From Alphaproteobacteria bacterium (GTDB taxonomy: Bacteria; Pseudomonadota; Alphaproteobacteria; JABAAW01; JAHZMA01): a stretch of 43,834 nucleotides of DNA. The notes beneath the pieces are model-generated. The model saw only the letters and a program-made list of their open reading frames with translations. It made no database searches and was not told the origin of the DNA. Made by a program: the position numbers and the translations under genes. This document shows positions 884 through 40,047 of the stretch, one piece after another (the first letter of the stretch is position 1; every line of letters starts with the position of its first letter). The stretch spans positions 1 through 43,834 of the forward strand of contig JAHZMA010000055.1 of assembly GCA_022599575.1 (NCBI GenBank), given 5' to 3'.

Positions 884-3214
884 TTATTGGAGTTGCGGAT
901 CTTGATTTTTGTCCGTGACTTTACTTTGCGCGTATTTTGCAATCAAAGCATCAAGCTTATCGATAATGATTGCATTCACCAATTCGGCACCCCATGGGCT
1001 AAGATGCGCGGTATCAGAATAGAATGTATGGCTCAAATCATGGGCAACACATTTATCGGGTAGGTAGCTATCGCAAAACAAATGATGCGGATAGAGTTGA
1101 TGCAGATTTTCAATATCAGTTTGGGCAAAAGGCTTTACCACTCTTTTGGTTCTTGTCAGAAAAACGTTCAAATCTGTCCAAAGCCAGTTGGCGCGGAGAA
1201 ATTCTTGTTGTTGCGCGATACTCATCACATCGACCTGATATTTTATTGCCAGTGCTTTTATGCGTTGCACAACATGAAAATTCATTGTAGGAATATCATA
1301 CACCATCACAACATCATTGCCGATAGCAAGCGTTGCGGTGAGCGCATTAAAAAACGCATCTTTCAAAGTTGCAGGCCCATTCTCGCTTCGCAAAAAAGCA
1401 TAGCTACGTGGTGATTTTTCAAACAATGCTTCCTTGCTATCATATAACTTTGCGTGATGATAACGGCTATACCAGCCATGCAAAACCAGAATATCAGGTT
1501 GATATTCCTGCAAAAATTTTAAGCGATTGCTTTGCCATTCGGCATCGCATTTTTTCACGCGCGCTCTAAACAATGTTAGCCCAAGATAGAAAGGGCAATT
1601 GCCTTCTGCAATCACAGTTATCTCTAAATTCGTGGGTGATTGCGATAAATATTGCACCAAACCATAGGATATTGTCGCCATTTGGCTATCGCCCAGCAAG
1701 ATAATTTTTACAGGTGGCGTATTGCTATTTGCTTGCGATACAAAGCGGCAATGTTTAATTTGAAACGCCAATGTTTGTCTGTAACAGAAGCGGGCATCAT
1801 TGGTTGAGCGTAAATTCTTAAAAGGCGCATCGGTGATATTCAGGCTTGCCAAGATACTGGCAGGTTCTGCTTCTGGTTGGGGCGGTGCTTCTGGGGCAGG
1901 TTCTGTTGGTGTTTCTTGTAGCACTGGCTGTGGTTCGGGTGTTGTTTCAGGCACGAGTTCGGGTTCGGTCACTACATTTGGCGTTGTTTCAAGTGCGGGT
2001 TTGGCTTCTGGCATAGGGAGGGGAGTCGGTGCAGGTGCAGGTGGCGATACAAGTGTCGGTGCTTTCACCGCAAAACGTTCGGGGTAGCCCTGATGATTGA
2101 TAGCATAAATATTGGGTGCGCTGATGGCAATAAACGCCATGCCCAATAGTAAGAAGCAGGTTTTGCGAGAGATAACAGTGTTTTTTCTAAAAGGCTGCTC
2201 AATCACAAAATATGATAGCACCGATAGCGCGAATGTGATGGCAAGGCAGATGATTTTATCGTGATTAGTGAATTCAACCGCATTGATGCGTGCAAAAGCA
2301 AAAATCGGGAAATGCCATAAATAAGCCGAATAGCTGATAAGCCCAATAAACGCAAAAACCTTGATGCGTAAGGCTTTACTCACAATATCATTTTGCGTGC
2401 CAAAGGCAAGAATAAGCATTGTGCCAATAATTGGTATCAGCGTTAAAAAATTGGGATGGGTAACGCCATAATCTAGCCCAAATATCGCGTAAATAATCAT
2501 GGCGAGGCCTAATAAAGGCATCAAATTGTTGAAAGGCTTATGTTTAATGGCACTATATTTCACTTCGTGATATGCAACCAACGCACCTGCTAATAATTCC
2601 CAAAAGCGCGAGAAAGTAAAATAAAAATTAAGCGAGGGGTTAAACTGCCCCATCAGATAGGCAGATTGCAGGCTTAATATGAACAGTGCCAACAACACAA
2701 ATAGAACATAGTGACGCGCGAATTTATAGCATAAAAATAAGATGAGGGGTAGGATAATGTAGAATTGCTCCTCAACTGCTAAACTCCATGTATGTAAGAA
2801 TGGCTTTAATAACGCGCTTGTCGCGCCATATTCGGTATTGGCAAAATAAAAGAAAAAATTCGAGCCAAAAAACAAAGCCGATATAATGCTTTGGCTATAT
2901 TCTATGAAATCAATCGAAAACAACCTCTGCCATGCCAATGGAAAACTAGCCAGCATCACCACAAATAGCATGGGCAATATACGGCGCGCGCGCCTTTCAT
3001 AGAAATGAGCGAAATTGAACGTGCCAGATTGCGATAATTCGTTAAGAATGATGCGGGTAATCAGATAGCCACTGATGATAAAGAAAATATCAACGCCAAT
3101 GAAGCCTGCATCAAACCAATCATTGCGCCCTAGAATTTCAAATTCGGCATGATAAAAAATCACCGCTAGCACAGCAATGGCACGTAATCCGTTTATTTCA
3201 CCACGATATAACAT
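884..3214 (-). CDS. Membrane O-acyltransferase (acyltransferase 3) fused to SGNH domain, OafA/YrhL type
   Basis: A 776-residue protein with two domains. Residues 1-380 are the multi-pass acyltransferase-3 domain: MLYRGEINGLRAIAVLAVIFYH at the N-terminus, then the typical FIGVDIFFIISGYLIT and the Arg-rich FYERRARRILP loop, with about ten hydrophobic segments. Residues 389-452 form a Pro/Glu/Ala/Thr-rich linker. Residues 500-776 are an SGNH-hydrolase-like domain with GDSQMA at 508-513 (nucleophile Ser) and DTAHLSP at 734-740 (catalytic Asp/His pair). Proteins of this architecture transfer acetyl groups from a cytoplasmic donor across the membrane to surface polysaccharide, lipopolysaccharide or peptidoglycan; which one applies here cannot be told. 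The gene stands alone between long intergenic regions, with no glycan genes nearby. The linker is unusually long and repetitive. Domain assignment is firm, substrate unknown. Confidence 0.93.
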   Translation of the reverse strand: MLYRGEINGLRAIAVLAVIFYHAEFEILGRNDWFDAGFIGVDIFFIISGYLITRIILNELSQSGTFNFAHFYERRARRILPMLFVVMLASFPLAWQRLFSIDFIEYSQSIISALFFGSNFFFYFANTEYGATSALLKPFLHTWSLAVEEQFYIILPLILFLCYKFARHYVLFVLLALFILSLQSAYLMGQFNPSLNFYFTFSRFWELLAGALVAYHEVKYSAIKHKPFNNLMPLLGLAMIIYAIFGLDYGVTHPNFLTLIPIIGTMLILAFGTQNDIVSKALRIKVFAFIGLISYSAYLWHFPIFAFARINAVEFTNHDKIICLAITFALSVLSYFVIEQPFRKNTVISRKTCFLLLGMAFIAISAPNIYAINHQGYPERFAVKAPTLVSPPAPAPTPLPMPEAKPALETTPNVVTEPELVPETTPEPQPVLQETPTEPAPEAPPQPEAEPASILASLNITDAPFKNLRSTNDARFCYRQTLAFQIKHCRFVSQANSNTPPVKIILLGDSQMATISYGLVQYLSQSPTNLEITVIAEGNCPFYLGLTLFRARVKKCDAEWQSNRLKFLQEYQPDILVLHGWYSRYHHAKLYDSKEALFEKSPRSYAFLRSENGPATLKDAFFNALTATLAIGNDVVMVYDIPTMNFHVVQRIKALAIKYQVDVMSIAQQQEFLRANWLWTDLNVFLTRTKRVVKPFAQTDIENLHQLYPHHLFCDSYLPDKCVAHDLSHTFYSDTAHLSPWGAELVNAIIIDKLDALIAKYAQSKVTDKNQDPQLQ

Positions 3215-3606: not shown

Positions 3607-5385
3607 TTATGTCGCCACATGCGATGCTTTTTTATCAGGCGAGTAAATATCTAAAATATTCCAATGCCCTGTGGTGGGGGTAGGGTTGTTAATCATCGCG
3701 ACATCAATCACGGTGGGCTTATCTGATTTAATCGCAGCTTGTAGGGCAGGCAGAAATTCATCTGCCTTTGTTATTTTAACGCCAACCGCACCATAGCTTT
3801 CAGCCAATTTTGCATAATCAGGTCCGAATTCTGGTGCGCCTGCCTCGCCCGAAAACACCGTGCCATAAGTGATATCGTAATGTGCTTTTTGTAAACCAGC
3901 GATTGTGCCAAAAGCGTTATTATTCATCACAATCCAGATGATGCCAAGATTACGCTCAACTGCCGTTGCCAACATTGCCGGATTTTGCCCGAACCCACCA
4001 TCGCCCACCAGCGATATAACCACCCTTTCAGGTTGTGCGATTTTAGCACCAATGGCGGCAGGTGGCCCAAACCCCATCGTGGCAAAACCACCGGGCGTTA
4101 GAATAGAACCGGGTGTTAAAATATCAAATTGTTGCCCAACACCATTTTTATTCCAGCCTACATCGGTAGTGATGATGGCATCATCGGGCAAGGCAATGCG
4201 GGTATCGGCTAAAATACGTTCAGGCATCATGGGGAACGCATCACTGCACGCCATCTTTTTGTTTTCTGCCTTGAAATTTTGCTTGAAATCCCTAATGGCT
4301 TTAACAGTTTTTTCGCGCTTAATACCATTAGGATAATCGCGTTGGGCGATTTTTATCAGCACCGATAATGCTGCTTTGGCATCGGCAATCGCGCCGATTT
4401 CAGTCGGGTAATTTCTGCCAATTTCAGATGCTTCAATATCAATATGAATAATTTTACTGTTAGGCACATTAAAAGTATAGCCAGGGTACCAGCTGGAACA
4501 ATCGGCTTCTTTAAAACGTGTGCCAATGGCAAAAATCCAATCCGCATTTAAGCAGGCTTGATTCACTAATCTTGTACCCCAAAAGCCAGTCATGCCAAGC
4601 ACTAACGGGTTGGCATCGCTGACCGCACCTTTACCCATTAAACTATGGGCAATCGGCAGTTGAAAATGTTCAGCAAAAATTCGCAGTTCTTCACTGGCAC
4701 GGGCTGATAATATGCCACCGCCTGCATAGATGAGCGGTTTTTTTGCCTCTGCCAATTTGGTGATAATATTGCTTGCCGTTGCTTCGTCAATGGAAGGCTT
4801 AATAAGCTGACGCGTATTTTGTTTAACCAAATCAAAGCTATCACTGGCAATTTTTTGCGAGAAAATATCCATCGGCACATTTACCAAGACTGGACCAGGT
4901 TGACCGCTTTGGGCAAGGTGAAAGGCTTTTTCTAATATTTCTGCCATTAATATAGCACTATCCACCCGCCATGCGCGCTTAACAAATGGGCGATAAATCT
5001 CGTATTGCTGGGCATCGGCATGTAGATTCACTTCCTGATGCGGATGTTTACCGTAATAATGGGTAGGAATATCACCAGCAATCACCACCATCGGAATGCA
5101 ATCAAGTGCGGCATTGGCAACACCAGTCGCGCAGTTTGTTAAGCCCGGTGACAGATGCGATAACACCACTGAAGGCTTGCCTGTTACCCGCGCATAAGCA
5201 TCAGCGGCATGGCTAGCAATTTGTTCATGCCGCACAGTGATAAATTCCATGCGATTGGCTGAGTTGCTTTTGGCAATTGCCGATAGCACTGCAATATTGG
5301 TATGACCACATAGCCCAAATATATGTTTTACGCCACGATTTTCTAAAAAATCAACCATATGTTCTGCAACGGTTTTTTCATTCAT
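3607..5385 (-). CDS. Thiamine-diphosphate-dependent enzyme, acetolactate synthase-like
   Basis: A 592-residue protein with the three-domain layout of the acetolactate synthase/benzoylformate decarboxylase family: PYR domain about 1-170 with the cofactor-activating Glu in RHEQIASHAADAYAR (E54), a central domain about 195-345, and the PP domain about 385-570 with the metal/diphosphate motif GDGG at 461-464 and NNN at 488-490. Such enzymes decarboxylate 2-oxoacids or carry out carboligations. It does not show the HEGSAG pattern I associate with sulfoacetaldehyde acetyltransferase, nor is a small regulatory subunit adjacent, so a biosynthetic acetolactate role is unlikely. The ATG at 5385 follows a GGAGAGG ribosome site; a GTG immediately before it is less likely. 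It lies 12 bp after an acylating-type aldehyde dehydrogenase, so the two probably share an intermediate. Substrate unknown. Confidence 0.85.
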   Translation of the reverse strand: MNEKTVAEHMVDFLENRGVKHIFGLCGHTNIAVLSAIAKSNSANRMEFITVRHEQIASHAADAYARVTGKPSVVLSHLSPGLTNCATGVANAALDCIPMVVIAGDIPTHYYGKHPHQEVNLHADAQQYEIYRPFVKRAWRVDSAILMAEILEKAFHLAQSGQPGPVLVNVPMDIFSQKIASDSFDLVKQNTRQLIKPSIDEATASNIITKLAEAKKPLIYAGGGILSARASEELRIFAEHFQLPIAHSLMGKGAVSDANPLVLGMTGFWGTRLVNQACLNADWIFAIGTRFKEADCSSWYPGYTFNVPNSKIIHIDIEASEIGRNYPTEIGAIADAKAALSVLIKIAQRDYPNGIKREKTVKAIRDFKQNFKAENKKMACSDAFPMMPERILADTRIALPDDAIITTDVGWNKNGVGQQFDILTPGSILTPGGFATMGFGPPAAIGAKIAQPERVVISLVGDGGFGQNPAMLATAVERNLGIIWIVMNNNAFGTIAGLQKAHYDITYGTVFSGEAGAPEFGPDYAKLAESYGAVGVKITKADEFLPALQAAIKSDKPTVIDVAMINNPTPTTGHWNILDIYSPDKKASHVAT

Positions 5386-5397
5386 CACAAGCCTCTC

Positions 5398-6804
5398 CTA
5401 TGCCAATTCGCTGTTATAAAATTCGCCAAATAATTCTTGTTCCGAAGGTCTATCTTCGGCTATTGGGCGCGCCACCCATGTGTAATTCATAAAATGTTTC
5501 AGGCTAACATTCTCGTTAGTGATGTTGCCGCCCCATATGCCACAGCCCAAAGATGAGGTCATTGGCATGCCATTATTAAAAGCACCCGCATTGGCTTTAG
5601 ATTGCGGTTGCCGTACCATCATACGGCTTACTGGTGCCACCCGTGCCAGTGCATCAATATTGGCATCATCATGCGAATAGATACCGCAAGAATGTCCTTT
5701 GCCACCTACATCGTAAATTTGGCGAACAATATCAAGCGCATCAGCAAATTTTGCAAAATGATATAATGCCATCACAGTGGTTAATTTTTCTTTAGAAAAT
5801 TTATGTGCGCTACCAATTTTCCCCTGATTTTCAACCATTAAAAATTTGCATGTTGCAGGCACTTCAAATCCTGCGACTTTGGCAGTTTGTTGTGGCGCGC
5901 AGGCGATAGTTGTAAAAGTGCGGTTGCCTTTTTCGTCCCACATGGCTTGTTGTAATTTTTGTTTTTGGGCATCATCACATAAATAGCCGCCTTCTGCTTG
6001 TAGTGCTTTTACCATTCTATCATAAATAGATTTTTGAATAATAATATTGCCATCAGCCGAACAGCCTGAACCAAAATCAGATGTTTTAGAAAGTCTTGTA
6101 TTCATGGCGGCAATATCAATATCGGCGGTGTCATCAATCACCATCGTCGCATTGCCTGCGCCAACGCCATAGGCGGGGCTACCCGAACTATAAGCAGCAC
6201 GCACCATCGGTTGTCCGCCAGTTGCCAACACCAAATCGCAAGCTGACATTAAATAATTGGTGATCGGAATGCTAGGTTTTTTTATAGCCTGAAATAAATC
6301 TTCGGGTGCGCCAACAATTTTACAAGCACGGCGCATCAGCGCAACCATCTCAAAGCTGGTATTGGCGGTGCGCGGATGTGGTGTAAAAATAACGGCATCG
6401 CGTGCCTTTGCGGCATAAACGCCGGTAACAGGCGGTGTTAATGCAGGGTTGGTCATGGGAATCAGTGATGCAATCACGCCCGCAGGTTTGGCATATTTTA
6501 CAATGCCTTTGGTTTCATCTGTCTCAACAATGCCCGTGCTTTTTTGCCGTAACGCATCGCGCAACACGCCATGAATCTTAAATCGTTTATTCGGACGTCC
6601 AGCACGGTCGCCAATACCGCTTTCATCAACCCCCATTTGCGCCAAACGGGTGAAGTTTTTTTCATTTGAACTATACCATGCAATCGATTGACATAATCTA
6701 TCAAGTTTGGCTTGCGGCCAATCTTCAATCTGTTGCATCGCATCAGATGCCCGTTTTATCATGACATCAATCATTTCTTTATCATTTTGTGATATGTCGC
6801 TCAT
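5398..6804 (-). CDS. Aldehyde dehydrogenase, acylating (CoA-dependent) SauS/AdhE-like type
   Basis: A 468-residue aldehyde dehydrogenase superfamily protein. The catalytic Cys is C248 in DFGSGCSADGN, and residues 100-145 carry the nucleotide-binding strand pattern seen in AdhE/EutE and sulfoacetaldehyde dehydrogenase (SauS) relatives. The C-terminal segment SSLGCGIWGGNITNENVSLK is characteristic of this acylating branch, which converts an aldehyde plus CoA and NAD(P)+ to an acyl-CoA, or the reverse. The Glu general base of ordinary aldehyde dehydrogenases is not evident, which also fits an acylating enzyme. An AGGGATAAC ribosome site precedes the ATG. It sits between a TIM-barrel isomerase-like gene and a TPP enzyme in one operon. 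SauS itself acts on sulfoacetaldehyde, but no sulfonate transporter, Xsc or Pta gene is nearby, so the substrate here should be left open. Confidence 0.85.
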   Translation of the reverse strand: MSDISQNDKEMIDVMIKRASDAMQQIEDWPQAKLDRLCQSIAWYSSNEKNFTRLAQMGVDESGIGDRAGRPNKRFKIHGVLRDALRQKSTGIVETDETKGIVKYAKPAGVIASLIPMTNPALTPPVTGVYAAKARDAVIFTPHPRTANTSFEMVALMRRACKIVGAPEDLFQAIKKPSIPITNYLMSACDLVLATGGQPMVRAAYSSGSPAYGVGAGNATMVIDDTADIDIAAMNTRLSKTSDFGSGCSADGNIIIQKSIYDRMVKALQAEGGYLCDDAQKQKLQQAMWDEKGNRTFTTIACAPQQTAKVAGFEVPATCKFLMVENQGKIGSAHKFSKEKLTTVMALYHFAKFADALDIVRQIYDVGGKGHSCGIYSHDDANIDALARVAPVSRMMVRQPQSKANAGAFNNGMPMTSSLGCGIWGGNITNENVSLKHFMNYTWVARPIAEDRPSEQELFGEFYNSELA

Positions 6805-6825
6805 TGTTATCCCTTTTGTAATATG

Positions 6826-7710
6826 TTACGCAGCTTTTGCGTTTTTAATATGGCGCGCTGAACGCACATTACCAAATTGTTGCTTGGCATGATACAAACA
6901 ACGCCTTGCATGCTCTTCATGCCCTAATTCTTTGATACGCGCCTGATTGGGCAATTCAATAGAATAATTTAACGGTGGCAACCGTTCGATAATCCCCTTA
7001 AAATCAATCCAACCTTCGCCCGGATAAAGTCGTGCATCGCGCGCTAACTGAATCATGCCTGCCTTAGTATCAGCAATACCCGGCAAGCAATCGGAGATAT
7101 GTAAAAAATGAAAATATTTCTCTGGCACATGTAAAAGCTCGCCCAAATCAACACGGCTTAAATGCAAATAAAGCGTATCAACCAAAATACCACTATTGGG
7201 TTGTGCAGCAGCACGCACAATATCAAGGGTTTCATCTAGGTTACGCAACCGCGAAAAGCTAGGAAATTCAAGGTCAACCGTTAGCCCATAAGGGGCGGCA
7301 AGTTGACATGTTTCGGCATAACAATCAATCACGAAATTCCTATCATCGCGTGATTTTGTCCACGCGCTCATAATCAAGCGTTCAGCACCCAATTCTGCGC
7401 CTAACGCCAAAGCGGGTTTAAATTTTCGTGGGTCACAATCTTCGGTGATACGGGCGATTTCAATATCAAGCACTTTTAAGCCTGTGGTTTTAAGCGCGTA
7501 TTTTGTGGCTTGCACCAGCGCTTTATCTTCGGGGTAACAGCAAAATTCATCAGTGATATTCATCGGGATAAAGCGCGGACTAATAGCATCGTAACCAGCA
7601 CGGGCGGCAATAAAGATAAGCTCAGGCACCGAAGCATCAATCAGCGTTAAATGCGCTAATGAATAAAGCGGTTCTTTATGTTTTTGCAACTTGTTTGCTT
7701 GATACGACAT
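6826..7710 (-). CDS. Sugar phosphate isomerase/epimerase-like TIM-barrel protein (xylose isomerase-like fold)
   Basis: A 294-residue protein of the AP-endonuclease-2/xylose-isomerase-like TIM-barrel family. It shows the usual barrel strands: YSLAHLTLIDASVPELIFIAARAGYDAISPR at the start, GLKVLDIEIARI, AERLIMSAW, LTVDLEF, ILVDTLYLHL, FHFLHISD, and GEGWIDFKGII near the end. The acidic and His residues on strand ends (for example E in LDIEIARI and H in FLHISD) suit metal binding. Members isomerise or epimerise sugars and inositol derivatives, or dehydrate cyclic acids. It is the first gene of the transcription unit TIM barrel, aldehyde dehydrogenase, TPP enzyme, and tandem inverted repeats lie directly upstream. 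The ATG at 7710 is preferred over a TTG just before it, with AAGGTG upstream. Exact reaction unknown. Confidence 0.8.
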   Translation of the reverse strand: MSYQANKLQKHKEPLYSLAHLTLIDASVPELIFIAARAGYDAISPRFIPMNITDEFCCYPEDKALVQATKYALKTTGLKVLDIEIARITEDCDPRKFKPALALGAELGAERLIMSAWTKSRDDRNFVIDCYAETCQLAAPYGLTVDLEFPSFSRLRNLDETLDIVRAAAQPNSGILVDTLYLHLSRVDLGELLHVPEKYFHFLHISDCLPGIADTKAGMIQLARDARLYPGEGWIDFKGIIERLPPLNYSIELPNQARIKELGHEEHARRCLYHAKQQFGNVRSARHIKNAKAA

Positions 7711-7745
7711 CAAACACGCACCTTAATAATTATCATAGTTTTTAT

Positions 7746-7781
7746 AAAATATCATATATTTTATAAAATATCAAATATTTT
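7746..7781. promoter_or_regulatory. Tandem AT-rich inverted repeats, candidate GntR operator
   Basis: Two copies of the same inverted repeat lie head to tail: AAAATAT-CAT-ATATTTT at 7746-7762 and AAAATAT-CAA-ATATTTT at 7765-7781, centres 19 bp apart. They stand 36-71 bp upstream of the TIM-barrel gene ATG. The first 17-mer is found again, base for base, at 13541-13557 before dctP. The GntR-type regulator at 14846-15496 is the obvious candidate to bind here (inference). Confidence 0.6.
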
Positions 7782-7797
7782 TAATTAAATTTGATAA

Positions 7798-8622
7798 TTA
7801 TGTCGGCAATTTACTCTTTGGTTGATAAGTAGGAAAATAAGCAGGTGGCATAGGGCCTTTATTTCTTCCGCCCTGCTGCATTTGCTCCCAACCATGTGCC
7901 AGCACACCCACCGCGCGCGAAAGACAAAACAACCCACGTGAAAGGGGTGGTGCAAAGCCAAGCTCACAAAATATAATGGCGCTAGAACCATCAATATTTA
8001 AGGCAATCGGTTTGCCTGTTGCATTTGTTAGCTGATGCTGAATCGCTTCGGCAATATCAGCAAAACGCCCCGAAACCGTTTTTTCATCAGCGGCTTTTCT
8101 TACCAATTCTAAAATACGGGGCGCGCGTGGGTCGTTTGGTTTATGAAAGCGATGCCCAAAACCACTGATAATCTTACCATGCGTGGCGCGCCACTCATCT
8201 ATGCCTTTTGTTACCGCATCGTTGAATGCCAATCCCTCATCAATCAGTTCGGCAATCTGGTAATAAAGCGAGGCACATTGTTCGCCCGCACCGCCATGCA
8301 CATCGCCTAGCATATTGATGCCCGTTGCCATCACATTATTCAAACCAATCCCGCAAGTTGCCGCCATGCGTGCAGCTGCGATAGAGGGCGCTTGTGGACC
8401 ATGGTCAACGCCTGCGACTAATGCGGCTTCTAGTAAATTCGCTTGCGCTTTGTTCGGAATATCACCGCGTAACATCAGCCAAATCATTTGCGCGAAACTT
8501 AATTCACCAATCAGTTTTTGGATAGGATTGCCGTAAAATTCAATCTTACCGGGTGCCATATCAATGATGCTGGTTTGCCACCATGTTTCAATATTCTGTT
8601 TATGGTCTTCATGTTTAGCCAT
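7798..8622 (-). CDS. Citrate synthase-family protein, citryl-CoA lyase-like
   Basis: A 274-residue protein, much shorter than citrate synthase (about 370-430). It keeps the catalytic positions of that family: H109 in GDVHGGAGEQ, H157 in GFGHRFH and D211 in NIDGSSAII. Stand-alone short members of this kind are usually annotated citryl-CoA lyase, cleaving (3S)-citryl-CoA or a related 3-hydroxy-3-carboxyacyl-CoA to acetyl-CoA and an oxoacid. The start at 8622 overlaps the stop of the upstream dehydratase gene (8615) by 8 bp, showing translational coupling and a shared substrate route. It ends at 7798, just before the operator repeats of the next unit. No CoA ligase is seen next to it, so how its acyl-CoA substrate forms is open; the acylating aldehyde dehydrogenase downstream is one candidate. 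Confidence 0.82.
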   Translation of the reverse strand: MAKHEDHKQNIETWWQTSIIDMAPGKIEFYGNPIQKLIGELSFAQMIWLMLRGDIPNKAQANLLEAALVAGVDHGPQAPSIAAARMAATCGIGLNNVMATGINMLGDVHGGAGEQCASLYYQIAELIDEGLAFNDAVTKGIDEWRATHGKIISGFGHRFHKPNDPRAPRILELVRKAADEKTVSGRFADIAEAIQHQLTNATGKPIALNIDGSSAIIFCELGFAPPLSRGLFCLSRAVGVLAHGWEQMQQGGRNKGPMPPAYFPTYQPKSKLPT

Positions 8623-10516
8623 TAGTCACCTCACTTTCTTGATAATGTTTCCGCATAGAAGCCAAGCGAATGGGCGCATTACTTGAGCCATAGCCATTAT
8701 ATTTGACGCGCCTTTCAACAATTTCAAAAAAGAAACCACCCAGAAAAGGCGTGCTATAAATTTGAAAAAATTCACCATTTTCGCTTTTGCTGTAAAGAAT
8801 ATTTTCGGCCTGCATGGTTTGAATGGTTTGTTCATCAAGCGCAGTGCTGGCGGTAAGCGCATCGTAATAATGCGGTGAAATCTGTAAGCGCGGAAAATCA
8901 TTTGCCAGCAACCATTTTGATGTTTCGAAAATATCATCACTTGCCAGCGCGATATGCTGAACACCTGCTTCAAATCGCTCATCTAAAAACGCACCCGCCA
9001 GTGTTTTTGCCGATGATGCGCCATTAAGGTTAATTCTTACCTCGCCTTCGGGGCTTGCAATGCTTTGCGATTTAACTGTGCCGAATGGGTCGGCAACATC
9101 AACAATCTTTGCCTTGTGCATTTGGAATGTTGCAAGATAATAAAGCAACCATGATTGCATATCATCATAATCCATCACCAGCGATATATGGTCGATACGC
9201 CTGATACAAGCGGGCGCGGTGATGCTATTTTTTTTATGATTTTCAAATTCCTTATCATAGTCAAACTCAATATTCCATATTTTATGTAGGTCAGAATTTT
9301 CATCAATAAAATTAATAATCGTGCCGCCATCCGATTTGATTGCTGGAATAGAAACGCCATAAGTCTGCTGATTGAAAATTTCTGCACCTAACTTTTTAGC
9401 GCGTTCTACCGTTTGATTGGCATTTTCAACCCGAATGCCCATCGCGCATACCGAAGCCCCATTGCTTTTAAGATAATCTGCAACAAAGCCAGTTTTCTCG
9501 CGGTTGATAATCATTAACACCGCGCCTTGTCGCCATAATTCAACCGCCTTTTTGATATGATTTTTTTCTTTACGAAAACAAAGCGATTGAAGCATATTAG
9601 ATAATGGCTGGTAATGGTCATCATCAACAGCAAATTCAATAAATTCAAACCCTAGTGGATAGACTCGTTTGGGCAAAGCAGGCAACTTAAATTTGGTATT
9701 TTTATCAATATTCTGCACATCATCAAGCAGACTCACCAACGAACGATAGGCATCTCTTACCATTATCTTCGCCGATGTACGCGCATTATCGCGAATGCGC
9801 GAAATTGCCCACGCGCCTTGATAGCCATTGCGCGCAATCATCTGAACAAAACCTTGCAAATTCAACTCGCCCTGCCCAGGCAACAAGCTAATTTGTCTTT
9901 TTAAGAAGCGAATATCGCCATTGATTTTTGGCGCATCGGAAAGCTGAACATAAAAGATTTTGCTGCCATCAATATCGCGTAATTTTGCTGGCATCGAGCC
10001 ATCGGCAAGCGAGAAAAAACTATTCAAACATAAGCCAAAATTAGGGTGATTAACCGCAGTAACAATATCATATGCTTGCAAATCATTATTAACATATTTT
10101 GCCCATGGCGAAGCCATATAGGCGATACGCACATTATATTGCGCCGCCATTTGCGCCAATAGGGTTAAATCTTCGATTTGTTGCACCTGATTTTCCGATG
10201 TTTCCATATGTTTTGAAGCGCCAACAAGCAAGCAGTTTATATCAAGCTGTTGCATTAACTCAAATTGATAGGTAACATTTTTAAACGCTGCCTGTTTCAA
10301 ACCATCGGGCAAGCCTTCAATTTCCGAACAAGGCTGTAGAACCTCAATTGTAAGTCCCAATGATGTGATTTGTTGTTTGAGGGTTTTGATGCTGATGTTC
10401 GAACAAATAAAATCGCGTTGATGAAGCTCGATACCCTTAAAGCCCGCTTGCGCGATAATGTCAATTTTTTCCGATAGCAATCCCAAAACAGATGTGGTTG
10501 CGATTGTAAGATTCAT
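8615..10516 (-). CDS. Bifunctional TIM-barrel/HPPD-like fusion protein, 3-dehydroshikimate dehydratase (QuiC-type)
   Basis: A 633-residue fusion. Residues 1-280 form a sugar-phosphate-isomerase-like TIM barrel (AGFKGIELHQRDF near the start). Residues about 300-610 resemble 4-hydroxyphenylpyruvate dioxygenase, with the three metal ligands visible as H443 (RIDHISL), H521 (VQHIAL) and E598 (FFFEIVERR). In bacteria this fusion is the QuiC1 type of 3-dehydroshikimate dehydratase, which makes protocatechuate in quinate and shikimate breakdown; the barrel does the dehydration and the role of the HPPD-like part is less clear. The ATG at 10516 is preferred because a longer frame would run into dctM. 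It follows dctM directly and overlaps the citryl-CoA-lyase-like gene, so its substrate is probably imported by the TRAP system. No protocatechuate ring-cleavage gene is present in the window, which is odd for that function. Confidence 0.8.
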   Translation of the reverse strand: MNLTIATTSVLGLLSEKIDIIAQAGFKGIELHQRDFICSNISIKTLKQQITSLGLTIEVLQPCSEIEGLPDGLKQAAFKNVTYQFELMQQLDINCLLVGASKHMETSENQVQQIEDLTLLAQMAAQYNVRIAYMASPWAKYVNNDLQAYDIVTAVNHPNFGLCLNSFFSLADGSMPAKLRDIDGSKIFYVQLSDAPKINGDIRFLKRQISLLPGQGELNLQGFVQMIARNGYQGAWAISRIRDNARTSAKIMVRDAYRSLVSLLDDVQNIDKNTKFKLPALPKRVYPLGFEFIEFAVDDDHYQPLSNMLQSLCFRKEKNHIKKAVELWRQGAVLMIINREKTGFVADYLKSNGASVCAMGIRVENANQTVERAKKLGAEIFNQQTYGVSIPAIKSDGGTIINFIDENSDLHKIWNIEFDYDKEFENHKKNSITAPACIRRIDHISLVMDYDDMQSWLLYYLATFQMHKAKIVDVADPFGTVKSQSIASPEGEVRINLNGASSAKTLAGAFLDERFEAGVQHIALASDDIFETSKWLLANDFPRLQISPHYYDALTASTALDEQTIQTMQAENILYSKSENGEFFQIYSTPFLGGFFFEIVERRVKYNGYGSSNAPIRLASMRKHYQESEVTNG

Positions 10517-10533
10517 CAATCCATTCCTATCAC

Positions 10534-11847
10534 TTAACTCTGATAGCCAAAAATGCGTGGCAACCAAAGCACAAAATCAGGAAATAATATCATGATGGTC
10601 AGCGCGCCAATCAGCATCACTAAAAATGTCCAGATTTCCGTAATAATCTCGCGTAACGGTATGCCCGTTACGGCATTAATCACAAATAGCAAAATGCCAT
10701 AAGGCGGTGTAATCAGCCCAATCATTGAATTAACCACCACCAACACACCAAAATGAATCAAATCAATCCCCAATGCGCGACAAGAAGGAATGAATAGAGG
10801 CACAATCACCAAAATAATGGTGGTGGCATCTAACACACAGCCCAATAATAAAATCAACAGATTAACGCCAATCAAAAACACGATTGGCGATAGTTCTTTT
10901 GTTACCAATGTGTTAGAAATAATTTCTGGAATACCCTCTGAAATAACGATAAAATTAAGGATAAACGCCCCGCCAATAACAATGCCAACCGAAGCCGATG
11001 AGCGCGCACTATCAATCAAAACCTCATAAAGGGATTTAACCGATAGGCTTCTATAAAACCCAGCCGTCAAAATAAGAGCGTAAAAAGCGGCAATCGCGGC
11101 GGCTTCGGTAGCAGTGGTTTTAATGCCGAATATCCCATTTTCCGAATAAATACCAACCAACAGAATCACTGGCATCATCAAGGCTGGAAAGGCATTAAAC
11201 GTAACGCGTGGCATCTGGCTGAATGGCGTAGCGGCTTCGGTAGGAAAATTGCGCTTTTTGGCAATCACGGCATTCATTATCATCAAAACCAAGCCCATTA
11301 GTAAGCCCGGTAAAATGCCTGCAATAAACAGCGCACCAATAGATTGGTTGGATACCAAACTATAAAGCACCATCGGAATCGATGGCGGTATAATCGGTCC
11401 TATGGTTGCCGAAGCTGCTGTAATGGCGGCGGCATAGCCCCGTGAATAGCGGTTTTTATGAGTCATCATGCCGATGATTAATTTGCCAACGCCCGCAACA
11501 TCAGCAACTGCCGAGCCAGACATGCCCGAAAAAATCAGAGATGCAACAATATTCACATGCCCTAGTCCGCCCCTAAATCTGCCGACCAACGCCACGCTAA
11601 AATTGAGCAATCTTTCAGTGATACCGCCAGAATTCATAATATTAGAGGCGATAATGAATAAAGGCACTGCCAATAACACAAAACCATTATAAAGCCCTTG
11701 CAGAATTTTTTCAGGGCCAATGGCAACATCTAAACCTGATATACCCAACCATACCAGCGCGGCAATCATAATGGAATAGCCAATCGATGTGCCAATACCT
11801 GCCAAACCAAATAACACAAGCAGAAAAATGAGTATTTCTATGCTCAT
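10534..11847 (-). CDS. dctM: TRAP transporter large permease subunit DctM
   Basis: A 437-residue, very hydrophobic protein with about 12 membrane segments. The start MSIEILIFLLVLFGLAGIGTSIGYS and inner motifs such as ILNFSVALVGRFRGGLGHVNIVAS (in part), GMSGSAVADVAGVG and PPSIPMVLYSL are typical of DctM proteins. It forms the Na+-coupled channel of a tripartite ATP-independent periplasmic carrier with the DctQ and DctP proteins encoded just upstream. It overlaps dctQ by 4 bp (ATGA junction), a usual arrangement. Such carriers take up organic anions, including C4-dicarboxylates, sugar acids and cyclic acids. Given the dehydroshikimate-dehydratase-like gene directly after it, a hydroxylated cyclic or sugar acid is a reasonable guess (inference). 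Confidence 0.95.
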   Translation of the reverse strand: MSIEILIFLLVLFGLAGIGTSIGYSIMIAALVWLGISGLDVAIGPEKILQGLYNGFVLLAVPLFIIASNIMNSGGITERLLNFSVALVGRFRGGLGHVNIVASLIFSGMSGSAVADVAGVGKLIIGMMTHKNRYSRGYAAAITAASATIGPIIPPSIPMVLYSLVSNQSIGALFIAGILPGLLMGLVLMIMNAVIAKKRNFPTEAATPFSQMPRVTFNAFPALMMPVILLVGIYSENGIFGIKTTATEAAAIAAFYALILTAGFYRSLSVKSLYEVLIDSARSSASVGIVIGGAFILNFIVISEGIPEIISNTLVTKELSPIVFLIGVNLLILLLGCVLDATTIILVIVPLFIPSCRALGIDLIHFGVLVVVNSMIGLITPPYGILLFVINAVTGIPLREIITEIWTFLVMLIGALTIMILFPDFVLWLPRIFGYQS

Positions 11848-12401
11848 TTAGCCACCTTATTTGTGGTTTTTATTTCTGTATTATCCGCTGTATCTTTTGC
11901 CGTTTCAATCAGACTCATCAAAGGCGGTGGCGGTGCGCCTTGCTTGATGATTGTATAAAAATTCCAGAGGCTTCGTATGAGCACCACTATCATAAACAGC
12001 ATATAAATTGAAAATACCGAACGCATACTGATATGCAACGATGCGCTGTTACGAATGTTCAAAAAATTAATAAAATCCCATGTGGGTAAGAATGTTAGTA
12101 GCATCGCAAGCGTAACTGCACCTGCCGATATTAATGCCATGATTTGGCGTAATTTTTTACCCGCCGCTTGATAGAAAATATCGAAAGTAACAGCATCACG
12201 TTGCCGCACAATAAAAGCGTTGCCAAAAAAAACAATCCATACCCATAGGGTGAGACATAATTCTAACGTCCAAGAATAGGGTTGTTCCATAAAATTTCGT
12301 GAAAAAATTTGCAACAAAAAGGTTGCGAATAATGCGGCAACCATTAAGGCCGCAATAAATTCAGCAACATGGTTGATATAAGTGATGAATGTTTTTTTCA
12401 T
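11844..12401 (-). CDS. dctQ: TRAP transporter small permease subunit DctQ
   Basis: A 185-residue inner-membrane protein with four hydrophobic segments and the DctQ pattern EFIAALMVAALFATFLLQIFSR near the N-terminus, followed by SWTLELCLTLWVWIVFFGNAF. It is the small membrane subunit that pairs with DctM. The C-terminal 30 residues form a polar tail of no clear role. It lies 54 bp after dctP and overlaps dctM. The gap to dctP holds AT-rich sequence including GATGATATTT, a half-site-like match to the AT-rich repeat of this island, but no strong hairpin. Confidence 0.93.
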   Translation of the reverse strand: MKKTFITYINHVAEFIAALMVAALFATFLLQIFSRNFMEQPYSWTLELCLTLWVWIVFFGNAFIVRQRDAVTFDIFYQAAGKKLRQIMALISAGAVTLAMLLTFLPTWDFINFLNIRNSASLHISMRSVFSIYMLFMIVVLIRSLWNFYTIIKQGAPPPPLMSLIETAKDTADNTEIKTTNKVAK

Positions 12402-12455
12402 TAGCTTAAATCCCCATGTTGCTGATAGATGATATTTATATTATATTAAATCAAA

Positions 12456-13463
12456 TTACTTTCCAAGTGCATTGATTTTTTTCAACACACCTTTTGGCCA
12501 TGTTTTAGCCAAATCGCTTTTTCCATATTCTGCTTGAACTCGCTTACGGAATGCTGCCACATCGGGCTCATACACTTGCAAACCTTGTTCTTCTAGAAAC
12601 GCAACAAGCTCACTTTCAAGCTGTAACTGACGTTGCCTCCCTAATTCAGCGGCGTCATCGGCTGCTTTTTGAACAATCCGTTGCTCTTTTTTGCTCATTT
12701 TATCAAAGGTTTTTTTGGAAATAGCAATATAATTCAAATCAACCAAATGCGAGGTAAGAACAATTTGTTTTGTTACTTCATAGAATTTCTTATCCACAAC
12801 TGTTGGCAATGGATTATCTTGCCCATCAATCGCGCCTGTTTGCAAAGCCGTATAGACTTCAGAAAAAGCCAGCGGTGTTGGTGCAGCACCCAAAGCGCGC
12901 CCTAAAAATTGCCACGCATCAGTGCCCGGCATACGTAAATTCACCCCTTTTAAGTCGCTTGGTGTTCTCACAGTTAACTCATTTTTGGTTTGACGCAAAT
13001 TCACCTGACGACGCCCAAGATACATCACCGAAAGAAGCTTTACGCCTAATTTCTTTTCAGCTTTCTTCTTAAAGTCTTTCATCAGAGAATCATTAAAGAC
13101 CGCCACTTGATGGGCAGCATCTTGATGGACATAACCTGCTGTGAAAATTGAAAATTCAGGGATATATTGCGCCAATTCTTGTGCCGATGCAATTGTCATT
13201 TCTAAATTGCCGCGGGCAATTGCTTCAAGTTCGGTGCCTTGTGCAAATAACGTGGCATTATAGCTTGGCTTATAATCAGCAAATTTTGCAACAGCTGGTC
13301 CAAAAACTTCGGCAAGTGCAACCGAACGTTGGTCAGTTGCCGAACCTGATGCTGATAGGCGCAGGGTGATTTTATCAGCAGCCAAACTTGGTAATGATGT
13401 TACCATGAACGCACTTGCTGTAAGTGCTAATAGTGTTTTTCTTCGTGAAAGATTAAATGTCAT
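12456..13463 (-). CDS. dctP: TRAP transporter periplasmic substrate-binding protein DctP
   Basis: A 335-residue secreted binding protein. An AGGAGG ribosome site at 13470-13475 fixes the ATG at 13463 (a longer frame starts at 13505). The signal peptide MTFNLSRRKTLLALTASAF ends near SLAA-DKI; the SRRK pair makes export by the Tat route possible. The mature part shows DctP hallmarks: DLKGVNLRMPGTDAWQ, with its substrate-binding Arg, then SEVYTALQTGAIDGQDNPL. It delivers the ligand to DctQM. An exact copy of the AT-rich operator candidate lies about 80 bp upstream. The substrate cannot be read from the sequence; the following dehydratase-like gene hints at a quinate- or shikimate-like acid. Confidence 0.95.
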   Translation of the reverse strand: MTFNLSRRKTLLALTASAFMVTSLPSLAADKITLRLSASGSATDQRSVALAEVFGPAVAKFADYKPSYNATLFAQGTELEAIARGNLEMTIASAQELAQYIPEFSIFTAGYVHQDAAHQVAVFNDSLMKDFKKKAEKKLGVKLLSVMYLGRRQVNLRQTKNELTVRTPSDLKGVNLRMPGTDAWQFLGRALGAAPTPLAFSEVYTALQTGAIDGQDNPLPTVVDKKFYEVTKQIVLTSHLVDLNYIAISKKTFDKMSKKEQRIVQKAADDAAELGRQRQLQLESELVAFLEEQGLQVYEPDVAAFRKRVQAEYGKSDLAKTWPKGVLKKINALGK

Positions 13464-13540
13464 AACAGTCCTCCTATTTGTGACGTGGGTTAGCGCGATT
13501 GACAATATATCAAAATATATAAAAATACAATATTTTTTTT

Positions 13541-13557
13541 AAAATATCATATATTTT
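13541..13557. promoter_or_regulatory. AT-rich inverted repeat before dctP, candidate GntR operator
   Basis: AAAATATCATATATTTT has 7-bp perfect arms around CAT. It is identical to the copy at 7746-7762. A related sequence, CAATATATCAAAATATAT, follows closer to dctP at 13503-13520. The position, 78-94 bp upstream of the dctP ATG, suits control of the transporter operon. Confidence 0.55.
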
Positions 13558-13594: not shown

Positions 13595-14668
13595 TTATGG
13601 CGTTAATGAAATCAAAGCATGTGATTGCGCTGATTGCTGAATTGCTTCTATCACCCGCAAAGTTTTATAACCTTGCCTGCCACTGATTAAAGGCTGTGCT
13701 TGCTTTTGAATCACGTCAACAAAATGCTTCATTTGATTGGCCAACGGGTCTAAAGCCTGATATTCTAGCGATTGCGATAAAAGCGGGCTAAACCAATCAG
13801 GTTGTTTTTCATGGTGCCATAAATTCAAATCAGGCACGCTGAACGCCCCTTTAGACCCACCAATATAATATGTATTCTGCGTTGTTTTATGATAAGCTGG
13901 ATTTTCGCCAGATGTCATTTCCCAACTCCAAGGTGAGACCACCGAATCTGAAACACTGATTGTGCCAATAGCACCATTGTTAAACCGCAATAATGCTGCT
14001 GCAACATCTTCATTTTCAAATCCGCGTTTAGATTGAGCCGCTTGCGCTTGCACACTGATAATATCACCACATAAAAATTGTAGTAAATCAATATCATGCG
14101 CCAGATTCACCGATATAGGGCCTGCGCCTTTTAATTTCCGCCATGAAGCATCATTAAAATATTTATCGGGTTTGTAAAACCAGCACACCGCTTGAATAGC
14201 CCGAACATCGCCAATTTCGCCTTGCGTTATCAGCTGTTTAGCTCTTAAGATTAAAGGGTTATATCGCCGATGATGCCCGACCAAAATCGGGATATCATGT
14301 TGTTCAGATAATTCTACCAGTTCTAAAGCGGCGGCGGCAGAGGTGGCAATCGGTTTTTCAATAAGCATCGGGCATTGATGCTGGATACACAGCATGCCTT
14401 GTGCGACATGAAGCGGGGTTGGCGTTGCTAATATACAACCATCAAATGTTTCAGATGCAAATGCCGCTTCAATATTACAATAAAATCGGCTATTAAAACT
14501 TTGTGCTACTGCCTTTGCATCATCCATCGGGTCGATAATGGCAGTCAGTTCAGTTTCAGGCAATGCTTGCAATATTTTGGCATGGCGCTTACCAATAAGC
14601 CCCGCACCAACCAATGCTATTTTTACAGGGGCTATTTTTACAGGGGCTATTTTTGTAAGATGTGGCAT
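13595..14668 (-). CDS. Gfo/Idh/MocA-family NAD(P)-dependent dehydrogenase
   Basis: A 357-residue oxidoreductase. The Rossmann motif VGAGLIGKRHAKIL lies near residues 20-33, EKPIA (family-typical Glu-Lys-Pro with the catalytic-region Lys) near 99-103, and the C-terminal domain holds the NLAHDIDLLQFLCG segment with the catalytic-type His/Asp. Members oxidise or reduce hydroxyl groups of sugars, inositols and cyclic acids with NAD(P). In this island it could oxidise the imported substrate before dehydration (inference). The N-terminal PHLTKIAPVKIAPVKIALVG repeats because of a 15-bp tandem DNA repeat at 14616-14659, so the true start is uncertain by some codons. It is divergent from the GntR gene and precedes dctP on the same strand with a 131-bp gap. 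Confidence 0.88.
   Translation of the reverse strand: MPHLTKIAPVKIAPVKIALVGAGLIGKRHAKILQALPETELTAIIDPMDDAKAVAQSFNSRFYCNIEAAFASETFDGCILATPTPLHVAQGMLCIQHQCPMLIEKPIATSAAAALELVELSEQHDIPILVGHHRRYNPLILRAKQLITQGEIGDVRAIQAVCWFYKPDKYFNDASWRKLKGAGPISVNLAHDIDLLQFLCGDIISVQAQAAQSKRGFENEDVAAALLRFNNGAIGTISVSDSVVSPWSWEMTSGENPAYHKTTQNTYYIGGSKGAFSVPDLNLWHHEKQPDWFSPLLSQSLEYQALDPLANQMKHFVDVIQKQAQPLISGRQGYKTLRVIEAIQQSAQSHALISLTP
14616..14659. repeat. 15-bp tandem repeat inside the start of the Gfo/Idh gene
   Basis: The unit GCTATTTTTACAGGG occurs twice in full and then as a partial third copy, each adding five residues (KIAPV) to the encoded N-terminus. Because the period is 15 bp the frame is kept. This looks like replication slippage just before the Rossmann fold. 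Confidence 0.8.
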
Positions 14669-14732: not shown

Positions 14733-14749
14733 AGAATATATGATATTAT
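14733..14749. promoter_or_regulatory. AT-rich inverted repeat in the Gfo/Idh-GntR divergent gap, candidate operator
   Basis: AGAATATATGATATTAT matches the reverse complement of the AAAATATCATATATTTT repeat at 15 of 17 positions, and the two differences are symmetrical. Additional ATGATATTT half-sites lie at 14721-14729 and 14768-14777. The site is midway between the divergent dehydrogenase and regulator genes, as expected for autoregulation. Confidence 0.5.
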
Positions 14750-14845: not shown

Positions 14846-15496
14846 ATGGATAATAACATAACGGTTGGGTCTTCAACTTACGAAAAAATCAAGCATGATA
14901 TTATATTTGGTATATTGGCGCCCGGTAAAAAGCTAAAGCTTAATCAGCTGAAAGAAGAATATAATGCCAGCGTTTCTACCATGCGTGAGATGCTGAATCG
15001 CCTCGCCAGCGATGGTTTTGTACATGCCGAAGAACAACGTGGCTTTTTTGTTGCGTCAGTATCGTCAGATGATTTAACTGAAATTGCCAATTTGCGTATT
15101 TTGCTTGAATGCCATGCGCTTGAAACATCTATTGCCAAAGGTGATACCGAATGGGAGGGCAATTTGGTTGCCGCCCATCATAAATTGCATTTGCTAGAAC
15201 AGCGCATGTTGGCAGGTGATGAAACCGAAAAAGAAACTTGGAAACGCTATGATTGGGAATTCCATTTAGCCCTCATTCAGGCATGTGATTCCAATAATTT
15301 ATTGCGGTTGCACCGCACAATTTACGATAAATATTTGCGCTATCAGATGCTTATTCTTACCCATCGGGGGCAATTAGCGGTTGATGAACATAAGCAAATT
15401 TTTGATGCGTCGCTGGCGCGTAACACAAATATCGCGGTTGAGGTGCTAGCGCGTCATATTAGAAAAGGTCTTGAACACACAATCGCGCGTATGTGA
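14846..15496 (+). CDS. GntR-family transcriptional regulator with FCD ligand-binding domain
   Basis: A 216-residue regulator. The N-terminal winged helix (about 8-70) includes TYEKIKHDIIFGILAPGKKL and the recognition region YNASVSTMREMLNRLASDGFV, the usual GntR pattern. Residues 80-210 form an all-helical FCD domain, with metal/ligand-type His residues in the region LAAHHKLH, the EFHLALI segment and RHIRKGLEH. FCD regulators bind small carboxylates or sugar acids and are typically released from DNA by them. The gene is divergent from the dehydrogenase at 13595-14668 and next to the TRAP/dehydratase operon, so it is the probable local repressor of island A; repeats AAAATAT-N3-ATATTTT in front of three units are the likely binding sites (inference). 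Confidence 0.92.
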   Translation: MDNNITVGSSTYEKIKHDIIFGILAPGKKLKLNQLKEEYNASVSTMREMLNRLASDGFVHAEEQRGFFVASVSSDDLTEIANLRILLECHALETSIAKGDTEWEGNLVAAHHKLHLLEQRMLAGDETEKETWKRYDWEFHLALIQACDSNNLLRLHRTIYDKYLRYQMLILTHRGQLAVDEHKQIFDASLARNTNIAVEVLARHIRKGLEHTIARM

Positions 15497-23392: not shown

Positions 23393-24394
23393 ATGCCGAA
23401 AAGAACACCGAAAAGAACAATCGATAAAACCGATAATACCGAAAAATATTTGCAAATGTTGCGTCAAATGCTGCGAATTCGGGCGTTTGAAGAAAATGCC
23501 AATAAATTGTATTTAAGCGCAAAAATGCCGGGACTTACCCATATGTATAGCGGGCAAGAGGCTGTTGCGGTGGGCATTTGCGAGGCATTGGAGACCAGCG
23601 ATTATATCACCAGCACACATCGCGGACACGGGCATTGCGTTGCCAAAGGCGCGAATATCAAGCAAATGTTTTGCGAATTATTAGGCAAGGAAGAAGGTTA
23701 TTGTCGCGGCAAGGGTGGCTCTATGCACATTGCCGACCAAGCCAATGGCAATCTAGGCGCCAATGCGATTGTGGGTGGCAGTGCGGGCATTGCCACAGGG
23801 GCTGCTTTTTCAGCAAAATATTTGCAAAAAAATGATGTAGCCGTTTGTTTTTTTGGTGATGGTGCGCTAGGGCAGGGCTTGCTGTATGAAGTCATGAATA
23901 TGGCATCTTTGTGGAAATTGCCAGTGATTTACGCATGTGAGAATAATCTTTATGGCGAATATACCCATGTTTCTGAAATGGCAGCAGGCGAATTAACAGC
24001 ACGGGCAAAAGCCTTTAACATTGAAAGTTTTGACGTTGATGGGCAAGATGTGTTAGCAGTGAATCAATTAACTCAAAATTTGGTTGCGCGCGCCCGTAAA
24101 GGTGAAGGGCCATTCTTTATTGTGCTAAATACCTATCGCTATTTTGGGCATCATGTGGGTGATATTAATCGCGACTATTATCGCTCAAAACAAGAAGAGC
24201 AAGAATGGAAAGAAAAGCGTGACCCGATTACCAATTTTAGCGCATGGATGCTTGATAATAACATGATTGATGCGAGCGAACTTGCCGATATTAAAACAAA
24301 AATCAGCAGTGAAGCAAGCGATGCTGTTGCCTATGCGCTTGATGCTGCTTACCCCGATGAAGCAGAAGTTACATTGCATGTCTATGCTGAATAA
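23393..24394 (+). CDS. 2-oxoacid/acetoin dehydrogenase E1 component, alpha subunit
   Basis: A 333-residue TPP-dependent E1 alpha subunit. It has MYSGQEAVAVGICEALE, the TPP-binding GDGALGQGLLYEVMNMASLWKLPVIYACENN, and the GGSMHIADQANGNLGANAIVGGS segment with phosphorylation-loop-like residues and conserved His in THRGHGH. Together with the beta subunit it decarboxylates a 2-oxoacid or cleaves acetoin and passes the acyl group to a lipoyl carrier. The length and sequence fit acetoin dehydrogenase AcoA or pyruvate dehydrogenase PdhA about equally. It starts 48 bp after the regulator gene and is followed by the beta subunit after 22 bp. Confidence 0.92.
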   Translation: MPKRTPKRTIDKTDNTEKYLQMLRQMLRIRAFEENANKLYLSAKMPGLTHMYSGQEAVAVGICEALETSDYITSTHRGHGHCVAKGANIKQMFCELLGKEEGYCRGKGGSMHIADQANGNLGANAIVGGSAGIATGAAFSAKYLQKNDVAVCFFGDGALGQGLLYEVMNMASLWKLPVIYACENNLYGEYTHVSEMAAGELTARAKAFNIESFDVDGQDVLAVNQLTQNLVARARKGEGPFFIVLNTYRYFGHHVGDINRDYYRSKQEEQEWKEKRDPITNFSAWMLDNNMIDASELADIKTKISSEASDAVAYALDAAYPDEAEVTLHVYAE

Positions 24395-24416
24395 TCGCTT
24401 AATGAGGAATGTTTGA

Positions 24417-25400: not shown

Positions 25401-25401
25401 A

Positions 25402-35387: not shown

Positions 35388-35399
35388 GATAGTATCTTT

Positions 35400-37084: not shown

Positions 37085-37106
37085 GATTCTCTCTTTTAAT
37101 ATCATG

Positions 37107-38114: not shown

Positions 38115-38117
38115 TGT

Positions 38118-39656: not shown

Positions 39657-39660
39657 AGCT

Positions 39661-40047
39661 TTACGCCCCCTTATTAATACGCGCATGGATAGGATTCACC
39701 TTCCATGATGTTTCTTGAAGCTCAACCAGCTCTAACGATACCATCAAATAGCCTTTAGCCAATTCATCTTTGAAAAAATCTTGCGTTTCTTGCATTAATA
39801 AATCGCCCGTTTCTTGCTTTTGTTCAAAAGAACGGCCTTTGCCAAGCCGAAAAATCATATCAATAAACGCATTATCCTGATGCCCATCAGCAAGCGCGTA
39901 ATGTTTTTGTGGTTCTGCCCGCACCCTAATACCGCCAAGCGGATAGGTTGTAAGAGTCGTGATTTTTTGACGCATCAGCTCACAAAATGCGCTGATATCA
40001 GCTTTATCTTCTAAATTAGAAGAATATTGAATAAGCAAATGTGGCAT
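39661..40047 (-). CDS. hpaF: 5-carboxymethyl-2-hydroxymuconate delta-isomerase
   Basis: A 128-residue protein of the tautomerase-like fold. It begins MPHLLIQYSSNLEDKADISAF, with the N-terminal Pro2 that serves as catalytic base in this superfamily, and contains GGIRVRAEPQKHYALADG. HpaF isomerises 5-carboxymethyl-2-hydroxymuconate to its 2-oxo form. It is the first gene of the hpaFEDGHI operon and is divergent from hpaR. An AGGGGCGG ribosome site is present. Length matches the usual 125-130 residues. Confidence 0.92.
   Translation of the reverse strand: MPHLLIQYSSNLEDKADISAFCELMRQKITTLTTYPLGGIRVRAEPQKHYALADGHQDNAFIDMIFRLGKGRSFEQKQETGDLLMQETQDFFKDELAKGYLMVSLELVELQETSWKVNPIHARINKGA

Follow-up and report, generated by a model that had tools for sequence, protein, structure and literature searches.

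A conserved gene cluster predicted to open quinate/shikimate-like hydroaromatic acids without aromatisation

The window (the whole analysed stretch of DNA, 43,834 nucleotides) contains a gene cluster that is best filed as a new catabolic route made of known enzyme families. Its substrate class, a quinate/shikimate-like hydroaromatic acid, is well supported. It is probable (roughly 0.6) that this acid is opened by a TPP-dependent enzyme, without aromatisation or an oxygenase, and is then cleaved as a CoA thioester. More tentatively, the cluster may encode an undescribed O2-free, non-aromatising quinate/shikimate route, in which ring hydrolysis by the TPP enzyme and formation of homocitryl-CoA lead to acetyl-CoA and 2-oxoglutarate, in marine Alphaproteobacteria, SAR324, an Azoarcus and actinomycetes. 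Such a route could provide the genetic basis that is missing for anaerobic hydroaromatic degradation, for example in Propionivibrio limicola, which is cited as a fermentative degrader in PMC4140718. Searches of the open-access literature on the pathway, the TRAP protein and hydroaromatic fermentation returned nothing on this gene set, and an earlier description elsewhere is possible.

Textbook catabolism of quinate and shikimate proceeds via protocatechuate, and O2 is required for ring cleavage. If the proposed route is true, it would represent a second solution, in which the saturated ring is opened by a TPP enzyme and the pathway ends in central metabolites. Families of TPP, isomerase-like and citryl-CoA-lyase-like proteins that are so far unnamed would gain a function, the annotation of QuiC and of acetolactate synthases would be corrected, and the anaerobic use of hydroaromatic acids would be given a gene basis.

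Gene content, conservation and predicted operator

Nine genes lie in the same direction on the minus strand, from 14668 down to 3607, with short gaps or overlaps between them. The first encodes a Gfo/Idh/MocA dehydrogenase (MocA, 13595..14668), assigned by HMM and proposed to carry out the first oxidation. It is followed by a complete TRAP transporter (Pfam PF03480, PF04290 and PF06808), with the solute-binding protein DctP (12456..13505, alternative ATG at 13463), the small permease DctQ (11844..12401) and the large permease DctM (10534..11847, also assigned by HMM). The next genes encode a QuiC-like fusion (8615..10567), whose true start is likely at 10516 (codon 18), a citryl-CoA-lyase family protein (CCL, 7798..8622), a xylose-isomerase-like TIM barrel of the AP_endonuc_2/sugar-isomerase-like type (XIE, 6826..7713), a CoA-acylating aldehyde dehydrogenase of the SauS/EutE/AdhE group (ALDH, 5398..6804) and the TPP-dependent enzyme (3607..5388); XIE and ALDH were assigned by HMM, and the fusion by HMM and residues. 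On the plus strand, divergent from MocA, lies a regulator (14846..15496) whose GntR family was read from the sequence. An earlier note on this DNA had named genes and families of this unit, and ORF positions and HMM matches confirmed its genes and coordinates; its range was too short, as MocA and GntR are also members.

CCL was used as the query in a genome-wide scan, which returned 80 loci, 28 of them also carrying the TPP gene. All of these TPP-bearing loci (28/28, ALDH included) keep the order CCL-XIE-ALDH-TPP without change, and the four genes are never separated. Of the 28, 21 share the complete arrangement GntR|MocA-DctPQM-QuiC-CCL-XIE-ALDH-TPP, MocA being found in 23 and GntR in 24. The cluster genes are one real conserved unit and not a chance assembly. 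Relatives in which these genes are never found together would have spoken against the unit proposed in the earlier note; the co-occurrence search found them recurring together. An insert of about 3 kb separates CCL from XIE in 15 of the 28 loci and is absent from the window. Where it was read, this insert contains two more MocA-type genes and a gene for a protein of about 220 residues, cupin-like by reading, for which no NCBIfam model matched. In a single locus (L071), an HpcH/HpaI-type aldolase gene, named by reading, is located directly 3' of TPP; it is not frequent enough to settle what the end products are.

A palindrome, AATATCWGATATT, was derived by comparing the GntR-MocA gaps between loci. 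With at most one mismatch it occurs four times in the window, always within the gaps of this cluster. The motif scan placed AATATCATATATT at 7748..7760 and AATATCAAATATT at 7767..7779, both 5' of XIE-ALDH-TPP, a further copy of AATATCATATATT at 13543..13555, 5' of DctP, and AATATATGATATT at 14735..14747, between MocA and GntR. In shuffled sequences the mean was 0.24 per whole window, and four copies were never reached. Across the 28 loci, 50 of 53 sites of this type are located upstream of XIE (21), DctP (13), MocA (12) or GntR (4). The exact palindrome was found 22 times in 15 whole genomes and its reversed control not once (0); 21 of the 22 sites appear to be within clusters, as judged by contig position and with the XIE side of the split L164 cluster counted, the exception being G389:C17. 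Since the GntR/MocA gap was the source of the motif, the sites at XIE and DctP count as independent support. This predicted common operator ties MocA, DctP and XIE into one regulated set. Together with the gene order (21/28), it supports one co-regulated set, where the earlier note had spoken of "one or two operons".

Shikimate genes in related clusters

The window's own cluster has no shikimate dehydrogenase (SDH, AroE) or dehydroquinase gene, so the hydroaromatic assignment is drawn from its relatives. One or both of these functions are encoded in 14 of 31 TPP-bearing loci, among them those of Azoarcus, SAR324 and two actinomycetes. The same genes occur in 2 of 51 CCL loci without TPP, both of which are cut-off members of the cluster. 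Ten alphaproteobacterial loci carry a gene for an AroE-type shikimate dehydrogenase between the fusion and CCL; the one tested scored 343 bits against NF009201 (cut-off 235). The aroQ/aroD genes of the relatives were confirmed by TIGR01088 and TIGR01093. SAR324 carries two type II dehydroquinase genes 3' of TPP, and a plasmid of Azoarcus sp. KH32C carries a row of genes for HPPD-like and DSD-like proteins, a CoA transferase, CCL, a TPP enzyme 64.7% identical to that of the window, SDH and a type I dehydroquinase (aroD). Streptomyces and Nonomuraea replicons encode a TPP enzyme (49%), CCL, a CoA transferase and SDH, to which Nonomuraea adds PQQ dehydrogenases and a QuiC. In Azoarcus and the actinomycetes the CoA transferase, of the CaiB type, replaces ALDH. 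The product of their TPP enzyme may therefore be an acid and not an aldehyde, and a thioester would still be supplied to CCL. The linked SDH and dehydroquinase genes support the suggestion made for the window, that a hydroxy acid related to quinate is used without aromatisation.

Enzymes of the proposed route and likeness to myo-inositol catabolism

CCL scored 425 bits against NF004864 (cut-off 261), and the catalytic H, H and D of the citrate-synthase fold are conserved, its HGGA, GHR and NIDG motifs aligning with 6hxp. It thus belongs to the same family as the Hydrogenobacter citryl-CoA lyase Ccl (6hxp) and the lyase domain of ATP-citrate lyase, whose catalytic residues it keeps. We infer that CCL splits a citryl-CoA-type thioester into acetyl-CoA and an oxoacid, in line with the citryl-CoA-like intermediate put forward in the earlier note. 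In contrast to citryl-CoA lyase, the partner of CCL is an acylating aldehyde dehydrogenase and not a citryl-CoA synthetase, and its proposed substrate is homocitryl-CoA (or citryl-CoA).

The metal site of XIE is intact in the window (E149, D179, H205 and E253). Residues E149, D179 and E253 are present in 20 of 20 aligned proteins and H205 in almost every one, L048 having Q instead. The nearest solved folds to its predicted model (pLDDT 83.9) are IolI and then QuiC1, IolE coming ninth; all three act on cyclic hydroxyketones. XIE is proposed to be a ring-ketone dehydratase or isomerase, the latter role being possible since it matches IolI over IolE.

HMM families, motifs (CGHTN, HLSPG, KHPHQEVN and DVGWNKNG) and the tree assign the TPP enzyme to a subfamily of its own. 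The cluster's TPP enzymes form a separate clade, and a sister relationship to IolD was dropped, as this placement has supports of 0.08-0.09. Against the IolD model TIGR04377, the enzyme scored 240 bits, below the cut-off of 715. The GHxN motif, close to the N-terminus of the TPP-binding domain, reads GHTN in the TPP enzyme and GHGN in IolD, and is also found in two other TPP enzymes, so it is not specific to IolD. Cyclohexane-1,2-dione hydrolase (2pgn), which uses TPP to open a cyclic 1,2-dione, resembles the TPP enzyme in the proposed step only; by phmmer the score was 152 bits, under those of acetolactate synthases, and it represents another subfamily. The TPP enzyme is the proposed ring opener, and may instead cleave a hydroxyketone or act as the decarboxylase of a 2-oxoacid.

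We infer every substrate and reaction of the following model, whose exact intermediates (3-dehydroquinate, dione, homocitrate semialdehyde and homocitryl-CoA) are put forward with less than even confidence. Quinate, shikimate or a related acid would be taken up by the TRAP system, and quinate would be oxidized to 3-dehydroquinate by MocA, or by the AroE-type enzyme in some relatives. Shikimate would enter via 3-dehydroshikimate, from which dehydroquinase acting in reverse would give 3-dehydroquinate. In an IolE-like reaction, XIE would then dehydrate 3-dehydroquinate to 1-hydroxy-3,4-dioxocyclohexane-1-carboxylate. Acting as IolD and cyclohexane-1,2-dione hydrolase do, the TPP enzyme would hydrolyse the C3-C4 bond to give homocitrate semialdehyde, which ALDH, proposed to turn an aldehyde into an acyl-CoA, would convert to homocitryl-CoA. 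Finally, CCL would release acetyl-CoA and 2-oxoglutarate. In quinate, C1(OH)(COOH) stands between CH2 groups and forms a citrate/homocitrate-type centre, as a citryl-CoA-type lyase needs. The carbon would balance (7 = 2 + 5), with a yield of two NADH and the use of neither O2 nor ATP.

The myo-inositol route (IolG, IolE, IolD, IolA), whose steps were taken from PMC9430895 as an analogy, likewise combines a MocA-type dehydrogenase, a TIM-barrel ketone enzyme, a GHxN TPP enzyme and a CoA-acylating aldehyde dehydrogenase. Opening of a carbocycle without O2 is common to both, being proposed in the case of this cluster. Unlike the myo-inositol route, the cluster has no IolB, IolC or bisphosphate-type aldolase, its aldehyde dehydrogenase is of the SauS/EutE type, and its pathway ends with a citryl-CoA-type lyase. 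Elsewhere, the window's genome encodes a genuine IolD as a separate protein.

The QuiC-like fusion and alternative readings

Residues E134, D165, Q191 and E239 are among the active-site residues of QuiC1/QsuB (PMC7442255). To check these metal ligands, the fusion dehydratase domains of 30 cluster proteins were aligned to 5hmq. In all 30 the site is lost: E134 is replaced by L, I, Q, M or others, E239 by A, G, S or others, and D165 by N throughout, only Q191 of the four being kept. The window's fusion has M, N, Q and S at these positions. In the C-terminal HPPD-like domain, the H/H/E ligands are retained in all 30 proteins. L048, a single complete chromosome of 1.86 Mb, and the SAR324 genome have no fusion, and both keep the core. 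The term "dehydroshikimate-dehydratase-like" used for the fusion at first sight is thus correct by homology, but the metal site of the dehydratase is gone. The lost ligands speak against the fusion as an acting dehydratase and, given also the two cluster genomes without a fusion, against the suggestion that it acts in this way on a related hydroxy acid. As judged from its residues and distribution, the role of the fusion is probably accessory.

Ordinary quinate/shikimate breakdown via protocatechuate, with the TPP enzyme, ALDH and CCL serving another purpose, is very unlikely. The fusion is indeed a QuiC homologue (407 bits against NF042435, under the cut-off of 1200), the QuiC adjoining the Nonomuraea cluster has its full dehydratase site intact, and PF00775 dioxygenases are encoded in 14 of 19 other cluster genomes. 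However, protocatechuate should not be the product of a fusion without its metal site, a loss which the intact Nonomuraea QuiC shows to be specific to the fusion of this cluster family. The window's genome, 94.6% complete so that the absence is not absolute, has no match to PF00775 or PF02900, the two main types of protocatechuate dioxygenase; a dioxygenase located elsewhere and co-induced with the cluster, which the earlier note had regarded as a sign of plain quinate breakdown, was thus not found. Three of the five relatives without PF00775, all MAGs, also have no PF02900. Moreover, CCL-XIE-ALDH-TPP are never apart in the 28 loci, and XIE and the transporter have a common operator. The likeness to the classical pathway (QuiA/AroE, AroD/AroQ, QuiC, Pca) consists of the QuiC homologue in the operon and of AroE and AroD/AroQ in sister clusters, whereas its dehydratase site is lost, its dioxygenase is missing here, and CoA- and TPP-dependent cleavage would replace aromatisation. 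For the same substrate class, an O2-dependent scheme is unlikely, though less so: the HPPD-like domain would open the ring, the TPP enzyme would decarboxylate a 2-oxoacid, ALDH would form citryl-CoA, and CCL would yield acetyl-CoA and oxaloacetate, with release of CO2. The conserved H/H/E, kept while the dehydratase half decays, is in its favour, as are the citrate skeleton, which equals quinate minus C4, and the natural pairing of a TPP decarboxylase with an acylating dehydrogenase. Yet L048 and SAR324 manage without the fusion, which weakens the case for ring opening that depends on the HPPD-like domain, and the stand-alone HPPD-like protein of Azoarcus is short of one His (H/D/E).

The preferred reading, hydroaromatic acid opening by the TPP enzyme, has also been weighed against other substrates. 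The best match of ALDH is the SauS model NF047625 (449.8 bits), as would be expected of a sulfonate/C2-aldehyde pathway with a SauS-type sulfoacetaldehyde dehydrogenase and an Xsc-like TPP enzyme. This score falls short of the 600 bits set as that model's cut-off, the 25 best models for the TPP enzyme include no Xsc, and neither the lyase nor the link to shikimate genes makes sense for a sulfonate; the sulfoacetaldehyde pathway was rejected as hardly credible. The main rival substrate, itself quite improbable, is KDO or another 2-keto-3-deoxy sugar acid, which the marine lineage would import through the TRAP system and degrade with the same C-C bond enzymes. DctP, whose predicted structure is of low confidence (66.6), is 71% identical to the closest solved TRAP protein, 4pf6 (Roseobacter denitrificans RD1_0742), which we take to be a KDO complex, and its next relatives are the SiaP sialic-acid proteins. 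Against KDO, the SDH and dehydroquinase genes of the clusters have no role in its breakdown, and none of the cluster genes was recognised as coding for a KDO aldolase or kinase. Furthermore, KDO pyranose and quinate have a C(OH)(COOH)-CH2-CHOH-CHOH ring segment in common, so that a protein made to bind quinate could pick up KDO from the host in which it is expressed, and the 4pf6 ligand fits either acid.

Ring-cleavage and inositol genes outside the cluster

The window also carries a homoprotocatechuate meta-cleavage set (34608-40688), in which the model scores of HpaD and HpaE are above the cut-off, those of HpaI, HpaH and HpaR are slightly below it, and an HpaG-like gene is also present. A ring-cleavage cluster therefore exists 20 kb from the cluster of the TPP-dependent enzyme (TPP) and the citryl-CoA-lyase family protein (CCL), and its predicted substrate is homoprotocatechuate. 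A true IolD, the TPP enzyme of myo-inositol catabolism, is encoded elsewhere in the same genome (locus L113, G000:C61:1561-3348; 764 bits, above the cut-off), which sets inositol breakdown apart from the TPP/CCL cluster.

Variants of the cluster and of the fusion

In 15 of the 28 clusters, an insert of about 3 kb separates CCL from the xylose-isomerase-like gene. Where this insert was read, it encodes a conserved protein of about 220 residues (L045:11964-12626 in one such locus), cupin-like by eye and without NCBIfam match, whose gene lies between two extra MocA-type dehydrogenase genes. Loci L062 and L070 are cluster versions in decay: the TPP gene is broken in the former, while in the latter the QuiC-like fusion is reduced to its HPPD-like part, accompanied by GntR, CCL and an incomplete MocA. 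In Azoarcus (locus L142), a stand-alone HPPD-like gene (L142:9961-10785) is the equivalent of this QuiC half; residue comparison gave H/D/E, versus H/H/E in the fusion. It adjoins a stand-alone dehydratase-like half (E/D/Q/D), and these separate genes suggest that the two halves are able to function apart.

CCL loci without a TPP gene

Of the 51 CCL loci without a TPP gene, 29 (L082-L105 and others) have a CaiB-type CoA transferase gene together with CCL, which suggests a distinct module that activates and then cleaves an acid. This arrangement occurs in Cupriavidus, Martelella, Roseobacter and others.

Other genes of the window

As read from its sequence, a 599-aa ORF (21545-23344) resembles an N-terminal DNA-binding domain joined to an extracellular solute-binding-protein-like domain. 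On one side of it lies a sugar-type ABC transporter, on the other an E1/E2 set of acetoin/pyruvate-dehydrogenase-like type (23393-26496). Moreover, an acyltransferase-3-like membrane protein (884-3214) has a C-terminal domain preceded by a long proline/glutamate-rich linker.
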